Shown here one piece after another: positions 8,590 to 30,209 of a DNA stretch of 42,655 bases. The notes under the pieces were generated by a model. It was not told the DNA's origin. It made no database searches and saw only the letters and a program-made list of their open reading frames with translations. The stretch spans positions 1-42,655 of the forward strand of contig JAGSHN010000026.1 in the NCBI GenBank assembly GCA_029855935.1. The letters are read 5' to 3'. Source of the stretch: Candidatus Thorarchaeota archaeon (GTDB lineage: Archaea; Asgardarchaeota; Thorarchaeia; Thorarchaeales; Thorarchaeaceae). Each line of letters starts with the position of its first letter. The stretch's first letter is position 1. A program made the translations under genes and the position numbers.

Positions 8590-8948
8590 GTGGCTCTGGA
8601 GCGAAAGCGCGACTGACGGTGCCGGGAGCTCTGCTTCACGGTGCTGAGGAAGATCCCAACTACGCGCCGACACCAGTCCTGCGCGAGCAGGGAGGCGAGA
8701 GCCTCGCTCTGGGAGCAGAAACGACACGTCCGTGCGGGAGATGACGATGATACAGCGTCGAAACAAGCTGTTGAGGACCCGCACGGGACCGTTGAAACGG
8801 CCCATCACTGGGTAGCAACCCCAAGAATACGCCGATGAGGAGTCGGCCCGAGGCGTAGGGTAGGGGGCTTAGTCCAATGTCGCAAGGTCCGCAGGCGGCA
8901 ACGCGGCGGACGGAACAGAATTGGGGCTACTCTTCGTACCAGAGCCAC
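8590..8948 (+). ncRNA. rnpB: RNase P RNA (archaeal type)
   Basis: Catalytic RNA that removes 5' leaders from pre-tRNA. Closing helix P1 is a perfect 10-bp pairing of 8590-8599 (GTGGCTCTGG) with 8939-8948. The conserved core is present in order: GAGGAAGATCCCAA (CR-I), AGCAGAAACGACAC (CR-II region), GTTGAAACGGCCC, GGGTAGCAACCCCAAGAA (CR-IV region), then GGTAGGGGGCTTAGTCC and ACAGAATTGGGGCTA (CR-V). P4 forms between CCCAA of CR-I and TTGGG of CR-V. The ends are set by P1 and could shift by a few bases. The location between cbf5 and tsr3 puts three RNA-maturation genes together. Protein frames across this stretch are spurious. Confidence 0.93.
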
Positions 8949-13453: not shown

Positions 13454-13573
13454 GCCCGGATAGCCAAGTGGTTACGGCGGCAGCCTGGAGCTGTCAGGAC
13501 TCCTGATTGCCTGATCACCAGGCAGCTGCTCTCCCTCTGGGAGGCATGAGTTCGAATCTCATTCCGGGCGCCA
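13454..13573 (+). tRNA. tRNA-Ser(GGA) with a 33-base intron, CCA encoded
   Basis: The acceptor stem GCCCGGA pairs with TCCGGGC, followed by G73 and an encoded CCA. After removal of 13491-13523 the anticodon stem GCAGC/GCTGC closes the loop CTGGAGA, giving anticodon GGA (13487-13489) with U33. A long variable arm (CTCCC/GGGAG) makes it class II, as for serine. The T-arm is ATGAG-TTCGAAT-CTCAT. The intron follows position 37 and forms a canonical bulge-helix-bulge: central helix CTGG/CCAG with three-base bulges AGC and GCA. EndA at 20491 is the enzyme expected to remove it. Confidence 0.95.
13491..13523 (+). other. tRNA intron (bulge-helix-bulge, 37/38 position)
   Basis: Cuts between G13490 and C13491 and between C13523 and A13524 fall inside the two three-base bulges flanking the 4-bp central helix. 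The intron itself folds further with TCAGG/CCTGA. This is the canonical archaeal splicing substrate. Confidence 0.9.
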
Positions 13574-15774: not shown

Positions 15775-17199
15775 TCAAGTCGCGAGATCCACCGGGAGCC
15801 CCCTCCTTGTGGCCCGCCGCCTTGCCGTGAAGAATTTCTCAAGGTCCAGGAAGTCGTTCGAATCCCACCGCCACGTTCTATCCACGTGGTCATACACCGT
15901 GTGGACCAAGATACGGTCATCCATTCCCGCATTGACTGCGGTCGGGTGGAACCGGCCTCCCTCATCCTCCTCGTGCCGTGCAAATACGTACGCAATGTCT
16001 TCTGCCGTGCCAGTGGGCAACGCCGCCAGCATCAAGACCCGTGTTTCCTTCCCACTCTCTACGTCCCTGACACGCGAGATGTATGTGATTGGCAGGCTGA
16101 GCCACGCCCTGAGAAATGTCCCTGCCTGCTCAGGAGGGACGAAGAGAAGCAGCCTGTCAGTCAACCAGTCCAGTTGCGGTCTTGCTCTGGGGAGCAACAC
16201 CGAGAGCTCGCCGGTGAGCCGCGCCCGTCTCTTGAAGATGGTTGACTCTGACAGACCCGTCTGCTTCGCAAGCTCCGACGCAGCGGCCGTGAACTCTTGT
16301 CGGAGTATGTCTATCAGCCTTGTATCTGCATCAGAGAAACTTGTCCTCACAGTACCCACTGGCTCGTCCGTCCCCATTACAACTGGTTCGCCGGTGTGCC
16401 GTAGCAGGAGATGGAGAATGACGGGATCGACCGTCCATCGACGGCGACCACAGTGCTGATTGTAATAGAGGCTGGAGAATCGCAGCCGTCCCGTTGAGAG
16501 CCGCCACACCCGCACGCTCTCTGAGGTTGTTCGTAGGGAACGTACAAGCACGACTATGTCTGAGACCCGTTCTCTGGGGGCCGTCAGGGTCTGGAAGACG
16601 ATGCGCGTGGGGCCATCACAATAGAGCGTCTTCTCGACATAGGGCGACGATATCACGAAGGTCGGCTCGACCAATACCACGAGTATCCTTGCCAGACCCA
16701 TCTCCCCCACATTCAATATTGCCTGTGTCCTCAATAGCCCGGTCTGCAGAAGTCTTCGATAGGCTCTTCTCGTCCTGCTGTACGTCAGTCCAATCTCGGC
16801 AGCCAACTTTTGCAGAGCGGATGAACGATGGTCATTGACCATTGCACCGAGGACTCTCAACTCACTGTCACTGAGATGGGCGAGACCCCTGTGCCACTCC
16901 TGTTCTATTATCATGAGGATTTCTTGTTGTGTCAGAACACCCCCGTCCCCAGCACGACCAGCGCGCCTGACACGGTTCACCACAACTTGATACAGACTCC
17001 CTCTATGCGTTGCCACCATGTCACGTAGCCGACGTGCGTTCTCAATCTCAAACACGTCGACGTCTCTCCCAATCTCAATTGACCTCAGCAGACTCAGAAG
17101 GCGTTCTGCGGAGGGCGAGAGCCTGCAGCCCTCATACTCGTCCTCTGTTTCGTTTCCGCTTCCCCTCAAGAGGCTTGCCCCACGAGTTCTCATCATCAT
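15775..17199 (-). CDS. Large winged-HTH transcriptional regulator with two HTH segments
   Basis: A protein of about 474 residues with two recognisable winged-helix segments. The first is around LSDSELRVLGAMVNDHRSSALQKLAAEIGLTYSRTRRAYRRLLQTGLL. The second is FSDADTRLIDILRQEFTAAASELAKQTGLSESTIFKRRARL. Each is followed by an alpha/beta stretch, giving an internally duplicated layout. A specific family cannot be named; HTH architecture of Lrp or ArsR-like type is the best description. ATG 17199 is chosen because a TATA box lies about 20 bases upstream, suggesting a leaderless message. It precedes RNase Z on the same strand. Confidence 0.75.
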   Translation of the reverse strand: MMMRTRGASLLRGSGNETEDEYEGCRLSPSAERLLSLLRSIEIGRDVDVFEIENARRLRDMVATHRGSLYQVVVNRVRRAGRAGDGGVLTQQEILMIIEQEWHRGLAHLSDSELRVLGAMVNDHRSSALQKLAAEIGLTYSRTRRAYRRLLQTGLLRTQAILNVGEMGLARILVVLVEPTFVISSPYVEKTLYCDGPTRIVFQTLTAPRERVSDIVVLVRSLRTTSESVRVWRLSTGRLRFSSLYYNQHCGRRRWTVDPVILHLLLRHTGEPVVMGTDEPVGTVRTSFSDADTRLIDILRQEFTAAASELAKQTGLSESTIFKRRARLTGELSVLLPRARPQLDWLTDRLLLFVPPEQAGTFLRAWLSLPITYISRVRDVESGKETRVLMLAALPTGTAEDIAYVFARHEEDEGGRFHPTAVNAGMDDRILVHTVYDHVDRTWRWDSNDFLDLEKFFTARRRATRRGLPVDLAT

Positions 17200-22473: not shown

Positions 22474-23478
22474 TTGCCGCAGATAGATGATATTGTTGAC
22501 TCCCTCCGCTCCTTTGAGGGAATCACCCGCAAGTATGTGATTCCAGATATCATCAGAAAGATCCGTGAGATCTCGTACAGGGGTGGCCTTCCGCACTCTC
22601 TGGGAGAGGACTCTGCGACAATCGGGACAGAGAGCGACGAGTACGTCCTCCTGACGACCGACTCTGTGGTGGAGGAACTGTGTCGCAGTCATCCCCGAGC
22701 TGCTGGATTCAATGTGGTCTTGGCCAACATTATGGACATCTATGCTGCAGGCGGTGTTCCGACCTCCTTTGCTGTCGCGCTATCCTACTCCTCACCATCG
22801 GTGGGTGAGGGTCTCCTTCAAGGGGTGATCGAGGGATCTCACGCCTTTGAGGTTCCCATCATTCGTGGTCACACCAATCCCTCTGCGAGCTGCACCTACA
22901 TAGTCGGTGCCGCCACTGGAAGAGTCAAAGTCGACGATGTGCTGACGGCCGGGGGCGCCACGAATGACGATCTTCTGGTCTTGATCTTCGACCCACAAGG
23001 AAGACGGGGTCGGTACTATCGTCTGGGCTGGGACACGGTCACCAAACGTTCCAGTGATGACAATATCCGTCGTCTCACAGTAATGACCCGGATTGCCCAG
23101 GAGCATCTCGCTACCGCCGCAAAGGACATCTCAACCGCAGGACTGGTGGGCACGGCCGCAATGATGGTGGAGTACTCAGGGATGGGGGCTCTCGTGGATC
23201 TTGATACACTGGACAGGACCCGTCCCTCAGCAATACCGCTCAAGGACTGGATTCGCATGTTCATCTCGTTGGGTTTCCTACTCTCTGTGAAACAGTGTCA
23301 TCTTGCCCGTGTTGAGGAGCTGACACAAGAGCACGGTCTTCGTGCAGTGGTCATCGGGCACGTGAACGACTCCGGGACACTGGACCTACAGTACGGCGAC
23401 GAGAGAAGGAGACTGTTCGACTTTCGCGATGGCCCCCTACTCACTCCTGCGGGTGAGGACTCGGATGAGCCGTCATAG
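22474..23478 (+). CDS. AIR-synthase-related protein (PurM/SelD/ThiL/HypE superfamily)
   Basis: A 334-residue ATP-dependent enzyme of the PurM-like fold. The N-terminal half has the superfamily signs GEDSATIG, LTTDSVVEELC and NVVLANIMDIYAAGGVPTSFAVAL, which form the acidic metal and ATP site. The sequence IIRGHTNPSASC and a second-domain segment KDISTAGLVGTAAMMVEYSGMGALVD complete the fold. It resembles the AIR-synthase-related subgroups more than true SelD, since the N-terminal Cys/Sec-x2-Lys catalytic motif of SelD is missing. The product is unknown. The nearby Sec cluster makes a selenophosphate-related role worth testing. TTG 22474 is the chosen start. Confidence 0.85.
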   Translation: MPQIDDIVDSLRSFEGITRKYVIPDIIRKIREISYRGGLPHSLGEDSATIGTESDEYVLLTTDSVVEELCRSHPRAAGFNVVLANIMDIYAAGGVPTSFAVALSYSSPSVGEGLLQGVIEGSHAFEVPIIRGHTNPSASCTYIVGAATGRVKVDDVLTAGGATNDDLLVLIFDPQGRRGRYYRLGWDTVTKRSSDDNIRRLTVMTRIAQEHLATAAKDISTAGLVGTAAMMVEYSGMGALVDLDTLDRTRPSAIPLKDWIRMFISLGFLLSVKQCHLARVEELTQEHGLRAVVIGHVNDSGTLDLQYGDERRRLFDFRDGPLLTPAGEDSDEPS

Positions 23479-25797: not shown

Positions 25798-27189
25798 ATG
25801 ACTGAGGAGCCGGTCACGGTACATGTGGGCCTCACTGGTCACATAGACCATGGCAAGACAGCTCTCGCTGCAGCGCTCAGTGAGGGTGTCTTCACAGCTG
25901 GTCTTGACAGACATCCACAGGCCCGGCAGCGAGGGATGACAATTGATCTCGGATTCACAATGTTCCATCTCGGCGACTATGTTGTGACCCTAGTCGATGC
26001 TCCGGGACACGCTGATCTCATCCGGAGTGTTGTCGCGGGGGCCAGCATAATCGATATGGCAATTCTCACGGTCGCCGCGGACGAGGGGCCCAAGGTACAG
26101 ACTGGTGAGCATCTTGTCGTTCTCGACTCGATGGGCATATCCTCTCTTCTCGTTGCAATCACCAAGATTGACCTTGTTGGTCGAGAGCAGGTCGAGAGGG
26201 TCGAGCGGCAGATGCGGTCGATACTCAGCGATCTGTCCTTTGACGATGTCCGCTTTGTGAGGGTGTCAGCGAAGACGCGTGAGGGCCTCGATGAACTGAG
26301 GCAGACGCTGCTGGACATGCTCCGCCCACGACCTCGAGACCGCGACGGTCCGTTCCTGATGCCAATAGACCACGCCTTTCCCGTCCGTGGTCACGGCACG
26401 GTCGTGACGGGTACCATCCTTCGAGGGTGTATCTCCTCAGACAATTTGGTAGAGCTAGCGCCACAGGGCCTGCGGGCGCGTGTCCGTACGATTCAGACCT
26501 TTGGGCAAAGCCGGAAGGCTGCTTGTGCCGGTGACCGGGTTGGCATCAACGTTCCCGACCTCGACCACAGAGACATCGTCCGTGGCTACTACCTCTGTCA
26601 GCCTCACTCGCTGGCGAATAGCCCGCAGTTCCTCGTGAGACTGCAGAGGACAAGACTCTACAGCGGGCGGGTGACCTCAGGTATGAGGCTGTCTGCCCAC
26701 GTTGGAATGCGCGCGGTGACCTGCGAGGTCATCCCACTTGTCGAGATTGAGGGGCGTCTTGTATTGTGTGAGGAGGCGGAAGACGAGGAGTTCCTTGCTG
26801 TGTTACGATCATCGCGCCCCATTGCAATAGAACCCGGAATGCGCGTCCTACTCCTGCGGACAGACCTTCCACCCACCACCATGCGTATTGTGGCATCGGG
26901 GGCGGTCCGGTGGACTACATCACCGACCACGGTATACAGACGTACGGTTCGGCGCGGGACTGTGCACCGTCTGCGTGAGGCCGACGTACTCGTCGTCGGA
27001 CTGGCCACCCGGCGTGAGCGTGCACTGCAGCTTCGTGGTCTGCGTGTGAGGGCTGCTGGTGGGGCCGTGGGGACGATTGGCGAGCCCTTTGGGACAAAGG
27101 GGGTTGTCAGCATATCATTCGACTCCCCAGTCACCGAGGGTGAGGAGGTCTATCTTGATGTGTTTCGTGAGGTGAGACTTGGTGGATGA
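25798..27189 (+). CDS. selB: Selenocysteine-specific elongation factor SelB (EFSec)
   Basis: GTPase that delivers Sec-tRNA-Sec to ribosomes at recoded UGA codons. It has 463 residues, the size of archaeal SelB. Domain I shows GHIDHGKT (14-21), QRGMTID (44-50), DAPGH (67-71), TKID (122-125) and SAKT around residue 157. Domains II and III follow (FPVRGHGTVVTGTILRG, then GDRVGINV), and a short domain IV runs to the end. The RQRGMTIDLGF motif instead of RGITI, and the extra C-terminal domain, separate it from EF-Tu/aEF1A and aIF2-gamma. It overlaps sepS by 11 bases and shares a palindromic TATA with the upstream divergent gene. Confidence 0.93.
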   Translation: MTEEPVTVHVGLTGHIDHGKTALAAALSEGVFTAGLDRHPQARQRGMTIDLGFTMFHLGDYVVTLVDAPGHADLIRSVVAGASIIDMAILTVAADEGPKVQTGEHLVVLDSMGISSLLVAITKIDLVGREQVERVERQMRSILSDLSFDDVRFVRVSAKTREGLDELRQTLLDMLRPRPRDRDGPFLMPIDHAFPVRGHGTVVTGTILRGCISSDNLVELAPQGLRARVRTIQTFGQSRKAACAGDRVGINVPDLDHRDIVRGYYLCQPHSLANSPQFLVRLQRTRLYSGRVTSGMRLSAHVGMRAVTCEVIPLVEIEGRLVLCEEAEDEEFLAVLRSSRPIAIEPGMRVLLLRTDLPPTTMRIVASGAVRWTTSPTTVYRRTVRRGTVHRLREADVLVVGLATRRERALQLRGLRVRAAGGAVGTIGEPFGTKGVVSISFDSPVTEGEEVYLDVFREVRLGG

Positions 27190-28504
27190 ACTGGAACGAC
27201 GGCTCTTGGAGACCATACCCACTAACATGGCGGCGAGAGGGCTCACCACTCTAGATGCCCTCATACGACCGATTCGCGACCTACTGAGTCGGCAGCAGTT
27301 TCCAGAGGAGTCACTGTCTGACAGACAGATCGAATGGCTCCTGAAACTGCTCTCCTCAATGGACTCTGACAAGGACCCTGCTGCCGCACGGGTGGGAGAG
27401 AGAGAGGGTCGCGTGGCATCTCCTCTGGTGGAGCGCCTCTCCTTCGCGTTCAACCATGGCGTGGGTCGCAGCGGTCATGTGACGGCACCACAGCCAAAGG
27501 CCGCCGGCGCGTCCCTGATGCAGCAGCTCTGCAACAATGTAGCTGTTGATGCAATTCGTCGTCTTGGCCTTCCCAACATCCGGCACGGCCTAGTACTCCC
27601 GGTATCGACGGGGATGTGCATCGCTCTCGTATTTGCGGCTCTGCGCCGGGAGCTTGGTGTGAGACGAGTCTTCTACCCACGAATTGACCACAAGTCCCCG
27701 CGTCGCGGACTGGCACTCGCTGGTGTCGAGGTGATTGAGGTCCCGACTATATTGACTGGCGATGCCGTCCGTCCGAACCTTGACTGGCTGAGTACCGTGC
27801 TGCCCGAGAGAAGAGACGAGGCTGCTGTTCTCGCCACGACCACGTTCTTTTCACCACGAGAGCCCGACCCTGTAAAGGAGATTGCCCGGCTCTGCAGCGA
27901 CCTTGACACGCCTCTCGTGATCAACAATGCCTATGGTGTGCAGTCTCCCCGCATCATGGCCATGATACGCTCTGCGGTTGATGCAGGTCGGGTCGATGCT
28001 GTGATACAGAGCAGTGACAAGAACTTCTTGGCCCCCGTTGGTGGGTCCATTCTCGTGTCAGCATCTAGAGACATAGTGGAGTGGACGGCTGCGACATACG
28101 CTGGTCGTGCCACCGCCGCACCAGTTGTCCAGACGCTTGCGGCCCTTCTGGCTCTTGGCAGGTCTCGATATGAGCAACTACGTTCAGAACAGGCCGAGAA
28201 CAGACAACTCCTCGAAACGATGCTGGGCGAGGTGGCCGATGCTGTCGGGCAGCGATTGCTCTCGGTGTTCAATCCAGTTTCTTGCGCGATGACCCTCGAT
28301 GGTCTTGACGCCCGGGTCATTGGAGCGAGGCTGTACAGTGCGCGAGTGACGGGGCCACGTGCGGTGGAGCAGGGAGATCAGGGTTCGTGCATCGATGGAT
28401 ACCCCCACAGCTATGTAGTTATGAACGCTGCAATCGGATCCTCACGTGAGGATGTCGAGACGGCAGTCGCCAAACTTCATAAGGAGCTCTCTCAAATGAT
28501 GTAA
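27179..28504 (+). CDS. spcS: O-phosphoseryl-tRNA(Sec) selenium transferase (SepSecS)
   Basis: PLP enzyme that converts phosphoseryl-tRNA-Sec to selenocysteyl-tRNA-Sec with selenophosphate. The 441 residues match the family: GVGRSGHVTAPQPKAAGASL (about 97-116, substrate phosphate loop), RHGLVLPVSTGMCIALVF, DHKSPRRGLALAGVEVIEVP, TTFFSPREPDPV, NNAYGVQSP, and SSDKNFLAPVGGSIL with PLP-binding Lys281. The TTG at 27179 overlaps the selB end, so the two are translationally coupled; GTG 27182 is also possible. The pathway partners tRNA-Sec and PSTK lie just downstream. Confidence 0.95.
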   Translation: MVDELERRLLETIPTNMAARGLTTLDALIRPIRDLLSRQQFPEESLSDRQIEWLLKLLSSMDSDKDPAAARVGEREGRVASPLVERLSFAFNHGVGRSGHVTAPQPKAAGASLMQQLCNNVAVDAIRRLGLPNIRHGLVLPVSTGMCIALVFAALRRELGVRRVFYPRIDHKSPRRGLALAGVEVIEVPTILTGDAVRPNLDWLSTVLPERRDEAAVLATTTFFSPREPDPVKEIARLCSDLDTPLVINNAYGVQSPRIMAMIRSAVDAGRVDAVIQSSDKNFLAPVGGSILVSASRDIVEWTAATYAGRATAAPVVQTLAALLALGRSRYEQLRSEQAENRQLLETMLGEVADAVGQRLLSVFNPVSCAMTLDGLDARVIGARLYSARVTGPRAVEQGDQGSCIDGYPHSYVVMNAAIGSSREDVETAVAKLHKELSQMM

Positions 28505-28549
28505 CCGTTTCCGACTGAGCGTGTCTCTGAGTTGTGATGGTGCGACGCT

Positions 28550-29185
28550 ATGACAACAGTCTCTCGAACTCTCCACTACGACGAACAGAGCCCATCGACA
28601 GTGTTCAGGATAGTCTGGTACGCGGCCGCACTGAGGCCTGGAGTCATACTGGTCGACCACAGCGAGGCTGAGAGCAAGACCCTCGACGCATCTGCGGAGT
28701 TCCAGCTGGACCTCGATGGCAAGCGGGTCAGCCTACAGGCGCACATCCGTGGCGATGATCGCTCTGTAGAATTGACAGTCTCCGGTGATGTCGACGGCTC
28801 AGCACTCGAGTCATATGTGGACGGCCTGACTCAGGAGATAGAGTCGCTGATCAAGAAGTTCGCTGCTATGGATGAGGCCACCCAACAACGTGTTGACCGC
28901 GCACTCTTAGCGAAGGCATGTTGGGACCGTGTGATTGCTGGCGTCCTCAAGAAGAGCCCTAGCAGCGACATATATTTCCAGCTCGCGCACGGCCGCGAGA
29001 TGATAATCAAGGCGACAGAGGGCGAGGATGTTCCTCCAATGGCGCTCACGACCAGTTCGTGGATCTCAAACATAGAGTCATTGCCACAGGACGAGCCGCT
29101 TCCCGCCTCCGTGGCGACCGATCTCGCAAAGAAGTGTGTCGAGTGGAAGAAGGAGACTCTGGAGATCTTGCGTCGGTATCTATGA
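28550..29185 (+). CDS. Unknown protein inside the Sec cluster
   Basis: A 211-residue soluble protein. The N-terminal half looks beta-rich (FQLDLDGKRVSLQAHI, then RSVELTVSGDVDG). A long helix, SYVDGLTQEIESLIKKFAAM, is followed by a helical C-terminal half ending VEWKKETLEILRRYL. No catalytic motif, metal site or membrane helix is apparent, and I do not recognise the family. ATG 28550 lies 45 bases after spcS with no obvious promoter between, so co-transcription with selB-spcS is likely. tRNA-Sec begins 34 bases after the stop. A role in Sec metabolism or RNA binding is inference from position alone. Confidence 0.78.
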   Translation: MTTVSRTLHYDEQSPSTVFRIVWYAAALRPGVILVDHSEAESKTLDASAEFQLDLDGKRVSLQAHIRGDDRSVELTVSGDVDGSALESYVDGLTQEIESLIKKFAAMDEATQQRVDRALLAKACWDRVIAGVLKKSPSSDIYFQLAHGREMIIKATEGEDVPPMALTTSSWISNIESLPQDEPLPASVATDLAKKCVEWKKETLEILRRYL

Positions 29186-29219
29186 TGTCTCTGGTGTGAC
29201 TGACATCCACATCACTGAT

Positions 29220-29310
29220 GGCCCCCAGCAGTGTCGGTGGTCCGGCGCCGCGGGCTTCAAACCCGTGATCGCGCAAGCGATGAGAGTTCGATTCTCTCTG
29301 GGGGCCGCCA
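29220..29310 (+). tRNA. selC: tRNA-Sec(UCA), CCA encoded
   Basis: All special features of selenocysteine tRNA are present. A 9-bp acceptor stem pairs GGCCCCCAG with CTGGGGGCC. The D-stem has 7 bp (GTGTCGG/CCGGCGC) with a four-base loop TGGT, as in archaeal tRNA-Sec. A 6-bp anticodon stem closes the loop CTTCAAA, giving anticodon TCA (29257-29259). The variable arm is ATCGC-GCAA-GCGAT, and the T-stem has 4 bp (AGAG/CTCT, loop TTCGATT). This is the 9/4 form of archaea and eukaryotes, followed by G73 and CCA. The extended D-stem is what PSTK recognises. Confidence 0.97.
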
Positions 29311-29320
29311 CTCACGCCAT

Positions 29321-30103
29321 TCAAGACCTCAATATCCCATCCTCGTACAGCCTGCGCCGTAGAATATCGAGTGTTTCGGCCTCTGACAGCCCCTGTCGCA
29401 GTGCTGTCTTCAACACCTCTCTCCGCAGCTTGGACAGTCGTTGAGGGTCGCTCCTGGCTGGGTGGTCTCGAATGAAGGCAGCCACCAGACGCCTTGTGGC
29501 GACATCGAGCGAGGTGGCCCGCTCGTCTCTTGATGACGATGCCATCATTCTGCCCCTTCCTCTCTCCTCGGTTTCGATGAGTCTTCTGAGTCCACTGACC
29601 ACTAGTCTCGCAGCCTCGTCCACACCCATCACAGAGAGGTCCGCTGCAGCAATTGGCCGATCCCAGGCATAGCGGAGGCCCGGCGGGTCGAGTCTGTCAG
29701 CAATCCTCCGAAGCACCTCCTCCGGAACCTGGCGTCTTCTCTGTCTGTTCCAGCGTAGCGCGACCGCGAGTGGTGTCGTGACGTACACGACGCCAAACGC
29801 GACACTCATCCTCTCAGCAACGACCAATAGCTCGTGACGCATGCTGGCGTAGTAGTTCGTGTCATCGTGAATGACTGACTGTCCCTGATCCAGTGTCCTC
29901 TCGGCTCGTCTCAACGCCTTCTGCCGCACTGCATGTTCTCGCTCTGGTGTGAAGTTCCTGTAGTACTCGTCATCACGCAGAGCATCGGTGCTGATCAGAG
30001 TCGCGGGTCGAAGGTCGTCTGTCAGTTGAGCCAAGACAGCCTCTGCAAGGGTGGTCTTGCCCGATGCTGGAATGCCGCACAGCGCGAGGAGAAACTGTGG
30101 CAT
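29321..30103 (-). CDS. pstK: L-seryl-tRNA(Sec) kinase (PSTK)
   Basis: Phosphorylates Ser-tRNA-Sec to Sep-tRNA-Sec, the substrate of SepSecS. With ATG 30103 it has 260 residues. The N-terminal P-loop kinase shows LCGIPASGKTTLA (P-loop at 10-18), ISTDALRDDEYYRNFTPERE, VIHDDTNYYASMRHEL and VVYVTTPLAVALRWNRQRR. A helical C-terminal tRNA-binding domain ends RRRLYEDGILRS. GTG 30115 is an alternative start. Its 3' end lies 10 bases from tRNA-Sec, on the opposite strand, and tfb is upstream on the same strand. Related small P-loop kinases exist, but the context makes PSTK firm. Confidence 0.93.
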   Translation of the reverse strand: MPQFLLALCGIPASGKTTLAEAVLAQLTDDLRPATLISTDALRDDEYYRNFTPEREHAVRQKALRRAERTLDQGQSVIHDDTNYYASMRHELLVVAERMSVAFGVVYVTTPLAVALRWNRQRRRQVPEEVLRRIADRLDPPGLRYAWDRPIAAADLSVMGVDEAARLVVSGLRRLIETEERGRGRMMASSSRDERATSLDVATRRLVAAFIRDHPARSDPQRLSKLRREVLKTALRQGLSEAETLDILRRRLYEDGILRS

Positions 30104-30209
30104 CAGAGGGTCCACCGAGTCTATTGTCCCCTGCTGTACAAAAGGAGTTTGTGGCCCGCCTCAAGAACGCGGTCCGCCCGGGGCGTTGCGCCACAAGACA
30201 TACAACGGT

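Follow-up and report, generated by a model that had tools for sequence, protein, structure and literature searches.

A predicted selenocysteine-decoding cluster in a Thorarchaeon, its fifth gene Sel_Asgard and the SECIS element of selD

In the metagenome-assembled genome (MAG; 2.97 Mb, 32 contigs, 97% complete) of a Candidatus Thorarchaeota archaeon, the stretch of DNA analysed here (contig JAGSHN010000026.1, 42,655 nt, hereafter the window) forms contig C5. It very probably carries the selenocysteine (Sec)-decoding cluster of this Thorarchaeon, with SelD, itself a predicted selenoprotein, encoded elsewhere in the genome. The genes selB and sepSecS, the Sel_Asgard gene, tRNA-Sec(UCA) and the PSTK gene lie together at 25798–30115 (Table 1), and the reading frames of all machinery genes are intact. 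Chance is excluded as an explanation of the cluster because the same gene order recurs across the family.

The original prediction for this region had named SelB, SepSecS, tRNA-Sec(UCA) and PSTK, and profile, ARAGORN and Rfam evidence agrees on all four. What it overlooked is a fifth gene between sepSecS and the tRNA, at 28550–29185. The overlap it described between selB and sepSecS measures 11 nt, and its distance of 10 bases between PSTK and tRNA-Sec was exact (the 3′ end of PSTK is at 29321 and the tRNA ends at 29310). PSTK has two start candidates, 30103 (ATG) and 30115 (GTG).

Table 1. Members of the Sec-decoding cluster in the window (nt positions).
Feature	Position	Strand	Remarks
selB / aEFSec, Sec-specific elongation factor	25798..27189	+	463 aa; TIGR00475, PDB 4ac9, Pfam aSelB_III
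sepSecS, O-phosphoseryl-tRNA(Sec):selenium transferase	27179..28504	+	441 aa; TTG start; TIGR03531, PDB 2z67
Sel_Asgard gene, fifth cluster member	28550..29185	+	211 aa; NF045535
tRNA-Sec, anticodon UCA	29220..29310	+	ARAGORN; Rfam RF01852
PSTK, L-seryl-tRNA(Sec) kinase	29321..30115	-	convergent to tRNA-Sec; TIGR03574

Machinery genes, linkage and inheritance

SelB scored 283 bits on its TIGRFAM profile (cut-off 242) and contains the aSelB_III domain. Its top PDB match was archaeal SelB (4ac9, 297 bits), whereas EF-Tu reached only 156 bits, and we assign the predicted protein to the archaeal SelB type, neither EF-Tu nor eIF2-gamma. SepSecS scored 437 bits (cut-off 225) and matched M. maripaludis SepSecS (2z67) with 335 bits; its pyridoxal phosphate lysine, K281 in the motif SSDKN, aligns with that of 2z67 and is invariant in 23 sequences. 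For PSTK, the only PDB matches at E ≤ 0.001 were the M. jannaschii PSTK entries (84 bits). The route through PSTK and SepSecS had been correctly proposed for this archaeon. The tRNA-Sec gene scored 64.4 bits on RF01852 (cut-off 47), in agreement with the ARAGORN call. It has a 13-bp acceptor/T branch made of a 9-bp acceptor and a 4-bp T stem, and CCA is encoded in the gene (29308–29310). The solved SelB, SepSecS and PSTK structures of the M. jannaschii and M. maripaludis Sec machinery are clear homologues of the Thorarchaeon's proteins; unlike the Thorarchaeon, the M. jannaschii genome gave no Sel_Asgard match.

From the established biochemistry of these families, seryl-tRNA synthetase would charge tRNA-Sec(UCA) with serine and PSTK would phosphorylate the resulting Ser-tRNA-Sec. 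SepSecS would then replace the phosphate by selenium from selenophosphate made by SelD, and SelB would bring Sec-tRNA-Sec to UGA codons marked by a 3′ selenocysteine insertion sequence (SECIS).

We surveyed linkage in 228 Asgard-phylum genomes, using hand-set thresholds; related genomes in this set are not independent. Both SepSecS and Sel_Asgard were found in 120 genomes, Sel_Asgard alone in 15, SepSecS alone in 14 and neither in 79. Where both genes were on one contig, they lay within 1.5 kb of each other in 114 of 115 genomes, with a median gap of 206 nt. Nearly all Thorarchaeial loci of sufficient length showed the order selB-sepSecS-Sel_Asgard-tRNA-Sec with a convergent PSTK, whose position is the same in most of these loci. 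In Jord-, Frey- and Njordarchaeia the pair selB-sepSecS is retained, and Sel_Asgard adjoins it or is a few kb away. Lokiarchaeia have the order (tRNA-Sec)-sepSecS-Sel_Asgard; their selB is on the opposite strand at a distance of several kb. At least one of the two adjacencies, selB-sepSecS or sepSecS-Sel_Asgard, recurs in Jord-, Frey-, Njord-, Hel- and Lokiarchaeia. The conserved order and the 114 close pairs therefore establish that the Sec gene block is widespread in Asgard archaea and no peculiarity of this genome. The expectation, part of the original prediction, that Sec genes are usually scattered does not hold here: linkage is the rule in Thorarchaeia.

The Sec trait of most Thorarchaeia and the clustering of a hypothetical gene with it have already been published (Huang et al. 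2024, PMC11227280, main text), so the cluster is a further case of a known arrangement and its linkage is ordinary in these archaea. The main text of that study reports SelD, SecS, EFSec, PSTK, tRNA-Sec and a UGA in SelD for Thorarchaeia, the same set as here; the complete gene order is absent from it and is established here. In four loci of Bathyarchaeota, PSTK and SelB are fused in one frame directly before sepSecS. This fusion has been described for Bathyarchaeota and an Archaeoglobi species (reviewed in PMC9499178), and we dropped it as a novelty. As in the Thorarchaeon, selB and pstk are there linked beside sepSecS, but the Thorarchaeon's PSTK is a separate, convergent gene.

Named relatives were searched for with SepSecS as the query, the Sel_Asgard alignment not being conserved enough. 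The nearest named sequences with this SepSecS are from Thorarchaeota (up to 69% identical), and the tree places SepSecS among Thorarchaeota sequences, in a six-member clade that has a FastTree local support of 0.944. The host, earlier described as a probable Asgard archaeon, is a Thorarchaeon by both measures. As far as sequence tells, the cluster was inherited within Thorarchaeia and not freshly acquired. It had been suggested that linkage would make the trait easy to gain or lose as a block; because SepSecS groups with Thorarchaeota, block transfer is not supported for this genome. In the same analysis, a contig labelled Chlamydiae bacterium SM23_39 bears a SepSecS that sits inside the Lokiarchaeota clade, which makes a binning error of that contig probable.

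SelD, other UGA-containing genes and the selD SECIS element

The selD gene lies on another contig (C21:243308-244171), scored 212 bits against a cut-off of 125 and contains one in-frame TGA, at the motif THGUSCKV. Among the 47 family genomes searched, at least 33 besides this one encode SelD with a single in-frame TGA. The Sec site reads GUSCK in 23 of 23 sequences and is nearly always HGUSCKV. Several Thorarchaeial genomes have, instead or additionally, a SelD-containing open frame of 530–780 aa with no in-frame TGA. In the window itself, an AIR-synthase-like gene (22474–23478) is related to methanogenesis marker 2 and, more remotely, to SelD; with 38 bits on TIGR00476 (cut-off 125) it was ruled out as SelD.

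A second candidate is a VhuU-like open reading frame (ORF) of 50 aa (MSEEIPEGLLNLIEMVVRCYDCULSCGAHLVVVDEEGRELARKELVTGGG) directly behind a NiFe-hydrogenase large-subunit gene on contig C24. Its putative Sec codon is at C24:78646-78648 on the minus strand, in the motif YDCULSCGAH. The hydrogenase large subunit in front of it ends in PDPIVKV, without the usual C-terminal DPCxxC. The VhuU pattern DPUxSCxxH gave no match, and the gene was spotted by eye as DCUxSCxxH behind the hydrogenase gene. A second hydrogenase large subunit (C28:7116-8213) likewise is without a C-terminal DPCxxC; we found no VhuU-like ORF near it.

Beyond SelD and VhuU, the selenoprotein families searched were HdrA, FrhD and peroxiredoxin. 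The copies that we examined were Cys forms or had no Sec signature; FrhD and AhpC-type copies had no inner stop. The one TGA of an HdrA gene on C17 falls ahead of the probable start codon or at the gene end and is not a Sec site, and the TGAs in an HdrA region on C24 and in an electron-transfer locus on C21 mark junctions between neighbouring genes. A scan for redox motifs beside TGA returned many chance matches, with SelD alone credible. The original prediction had expected selD and selenoprotein genes elsewhere in the genome, and both expectations were right: selD is on C21 with an in-frame UGA and a SECIS, and the VhuU-like ORF also contains UGA. The selenoprotein search it suggested yielded these two genes and, among the HdrA, FrhD and peroxiredoxin copies, no Sec site. 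Of the outcomes it had listed as contrary, a genome with no SelD and no UGA-containing gene or proteins outside the Sec families, neither occurred. The Sec system looks functional.

In an alignment of 23 selD genes, the SECIS is an element of ~80 nt that overlaps the UGA stop codon (C21:244310-244391 in this genome). An outer stem, GAGACCG/CGGUCUC, has its 5′ side inside the coding sequence. Further parts are a short UCC/GGA stem and an [A/G]UGA..GA core whose helix is variable and whose loop is A-rich. The UGA of the core is invariant, and the base before it is A or G in 22 of the 23 sequences; most have GAGGA on the 3′ side, and most have AAACC or close variants. The element has the core, the upper stem and the unpaired A run of an eSECIS-like element of the Asgard type. 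A second hairpin carries the loop YGCRA in 21 of 23 genes, the other two reading AGUGA and AGCAA.

The selD SECIS is predicted to sit in a three-way junction that includes the second hairpin and covaries strongly. In a structure of 19 pairs (outer stem, SECIS helix and second hairpin), 94.5% of the cells were paired, compared with 28–41% after the partners had been shifted by 1 to 3 columns. Deriving the structure from the same alignment favours the cells-paired figure; the double changes, seen as changes on both sides in 15 of the 19 pairs, are independent of that. None of 500 shuffles reached any of these measures, and RNAalifold recovered the same three-way junction. The GUGA or AUGA core overlapping the stop codon that Huang et al. 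(2024) describe for selD matches this element, and their lower-stem pairs G[A/U]G_C[U/A]C probably belong to the outer stem. Their main text makes no mention of a second hairpin or a three-way junction.

The 3′ end of vhuU has an AUGA at the stop codon, a GCAAACC run and a 6-bp hairpin with the loop CGCAA, all in a single sequence. YGCRA hairpins of at least 5 bp are rare (10 in 282 kb of strand), and such a hairpin by the vhuU stop codon is therefore unlikely by chance (~0.002–0.004 for 60–110 nt, for one sequence that was chosen after selD). vhuU seems to have a second-hairpin SECIS too; a search with the selD SECIS model did not detect the vhuU 3′ end. A match to the model at 17111–17148 of the window (E 0.055) has no SECIS helix and was set aside as chance.

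Sel_Asgard and its possible role

The fifth gene scored 191.5 bits on NF045535 (cut-off 132), a family listed in NCBIfam as Sel_Asgard, 'putative selenocysteine system protein'. In Huang et al. (2024) it is a hypothetical gene exclusive to Asgard near secS, efSec and pstk (for example, MBD3157761.1), for which the main text gives no fold. We predicted one with AlphaFold2 from 52 aligned members (pLDDT 95.3, pTM 0.90). The model has a helix-grip domain (residues 1–106; strand-helix-four strands-helix) and a four-helix bundle (109–210). Foldseek gave no match to it at E ≤ 1e-3. Among the weaker matches were the AP4 beta appendage (E 0.014, probability 1.00) and the AP2 beta appendage (E 0.12, probability 0.99). 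For the N-terminal half, a resemblance to KA1 and adaptin-appendage platform domains was given high probability but weak E-values.

The Sel_Asgard profile also aligned with the C-terminus of Asgard proteins of ~790 aa (hhalign probability 98.5%, 196 columns). In these, an ear that is appendage-like and matches COPI and AP2 appendages occurs together with a Vps28-C-like bundle, zinc ribbons and an array of UFL1/DDRGK-like winged helices. Three open frames of ~790 aa and one of 615 aa are of this kind. Asgard proteins with an appendage and a Vps28-C domain have been described by Makarova et al. (2024, PMC10936438); they share with Sel_Asgard a helix-grip (TBP-like) domain and, after it, a helical bundle, but Sel_Asgard is without their immunoglobulin-like half and winged-helix array. 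None of the 52 Sel_Asgard members matched Pfam VPS28 directly, and the link to Vps28-C runs only via the ~790-aa relatives. We found no literature that connects the Sec gene Sel_Asgard with the appendage/Vps28-C proteins.

Several points weigh against reading the region as a Sec-decoding cluster of which Sel_Asgard is a part. PSTK scored 140 bits (E 8e-41) on TIGR03574, under the curated cut-off of 290.5, which was reached by none of the 228 Asgard genomes. The host genome is a MAG, in 32 contigs and 97% complete, and Sec insertion at UGA is predicted from sequence alone. Well-scored Sel_Asgard members occur in genomes with no SepSecS match (families f12, f4 and f26); eight genomes of f12 and genome G175 pass the NF045535 cut-off with no SepSecS above cut-off. 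Conversely, SepSecS is present and Sel_Asgard missing in family f27 (G176–G179).

Sel_Asgard is therefore not strictly tied to Sec, and since members that pass the cut-off occur without SepSecS, the 'equivalog' label of NF045535 is too strict. In the tree, the branches of members from the SepSecS-less genomes are long and close to the midpoint root, so the family may be older than its association with Sec or may persist after Sec is lost. In f12, f4 and f26 the Sel_Asgard-like genes adjoin unrelated genes (HerA-like ATPase, CLC channel). PSTK is present in three of the four f27 genomes.

Sel_Asgard would be an accessory factor of the Sec pathway. We favour, with moderate confidence, a role as a non-catalytic protein–protein adaptor, because the protein resembles the Asgard adaptin-appendage/Vps28-C proteins. 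A tentative alternative is that it aids tRNA-bound synthesis, for example as a partner of SepSecS or PSTK that holds Sep-tRNA-Sec and shields it from other factors. In Lokiarchaeia the gene adjoins sepSecS, often with tRNA-Sec, and not selB, and the Bathyarchaeal PSTK-SelB fusion is thought to solve a comparable misrouting (PMC9499178). However, we found no sequence or fold link of Sel_Asgard to tRNA-binding proteins, and paralogues without SepSecS exist.

We consider it unlikely that Sel_Asgard is the factor that acts in trans on the SECIS in Asgard archaea, taking the part of eukaryotic SBP2 by bridging SECIS and SelB or the ribosome. SBP2 is absent from all Asgard genomes and their SECIS are eukaryote-like, whereas methanogen SECIS are of another type (PMC11227280, main text). 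Linkage to sepSecS, the lack of a Sel_Asgard score in M. jannaschii, a Sec user with another SECIS type that served as a control, and KA1 and METTL16-VCR-like folds among the weak Foldseek matches would all suit such a factor. Yet the protein is acidic, not basic: its two domains carry net charges of -8 and -2, and with medians of -3 and +1 across the family they are acidic or near neutral. Sel_Asgard showed no RNA-binding signature, including none of the L7Ae/SBP2 type, and the gene occurs in Asgard genomes without SepSecS. More doubtful still is a combined scheme in which a composite SECIS of Thorarchaeial selenoprotein mRNAs (a three-way junction of a kink-turn helix and the near-invariant YGCRA-loop hairpin) would be coupled to SelB by Sel_Asgard, as a reduced appendage/Vps28-C relative in the place of SBP2.

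That the cluster is a relic with Sec no longer used, or the contig a contaminant, is highly improbable: SelD and one VhuU-like ORF are indeed the sole UGA-containing candidates found, the examined HdrA, FrhD and peroxiredoxin copies being Cys forms or without a Sec signature, but the SelD UGA and the covarying SECIS are kept across the family, the machinery ORFs are all intact, the gene order is that of related named Thorarchaeota, and SepSecS groups with Thorarchaeota.

Elsewhere in the window, Rfam detected a 117-nt tRNA (13454–13570) that ARAGORN missed; it is enlarged by a big insertion at the anticodon loop and a second one ahead of the T arm, and it probably contains an intron. An archaeal RNase P RNA is encoded at 8597–8941 (176.6 bits).

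In the literature covered, we found no prior description of the three-way-junction SECIS of selD or of the fold and kinship of Sel_Asgard. The Asgard Sec system is the closest known to the eukaryotic one, and Asgard SECIS would be read without SBP2. The fifth gene of a conserved, compact cluster and a covarying mRNA element are two concrete items that can be tested.

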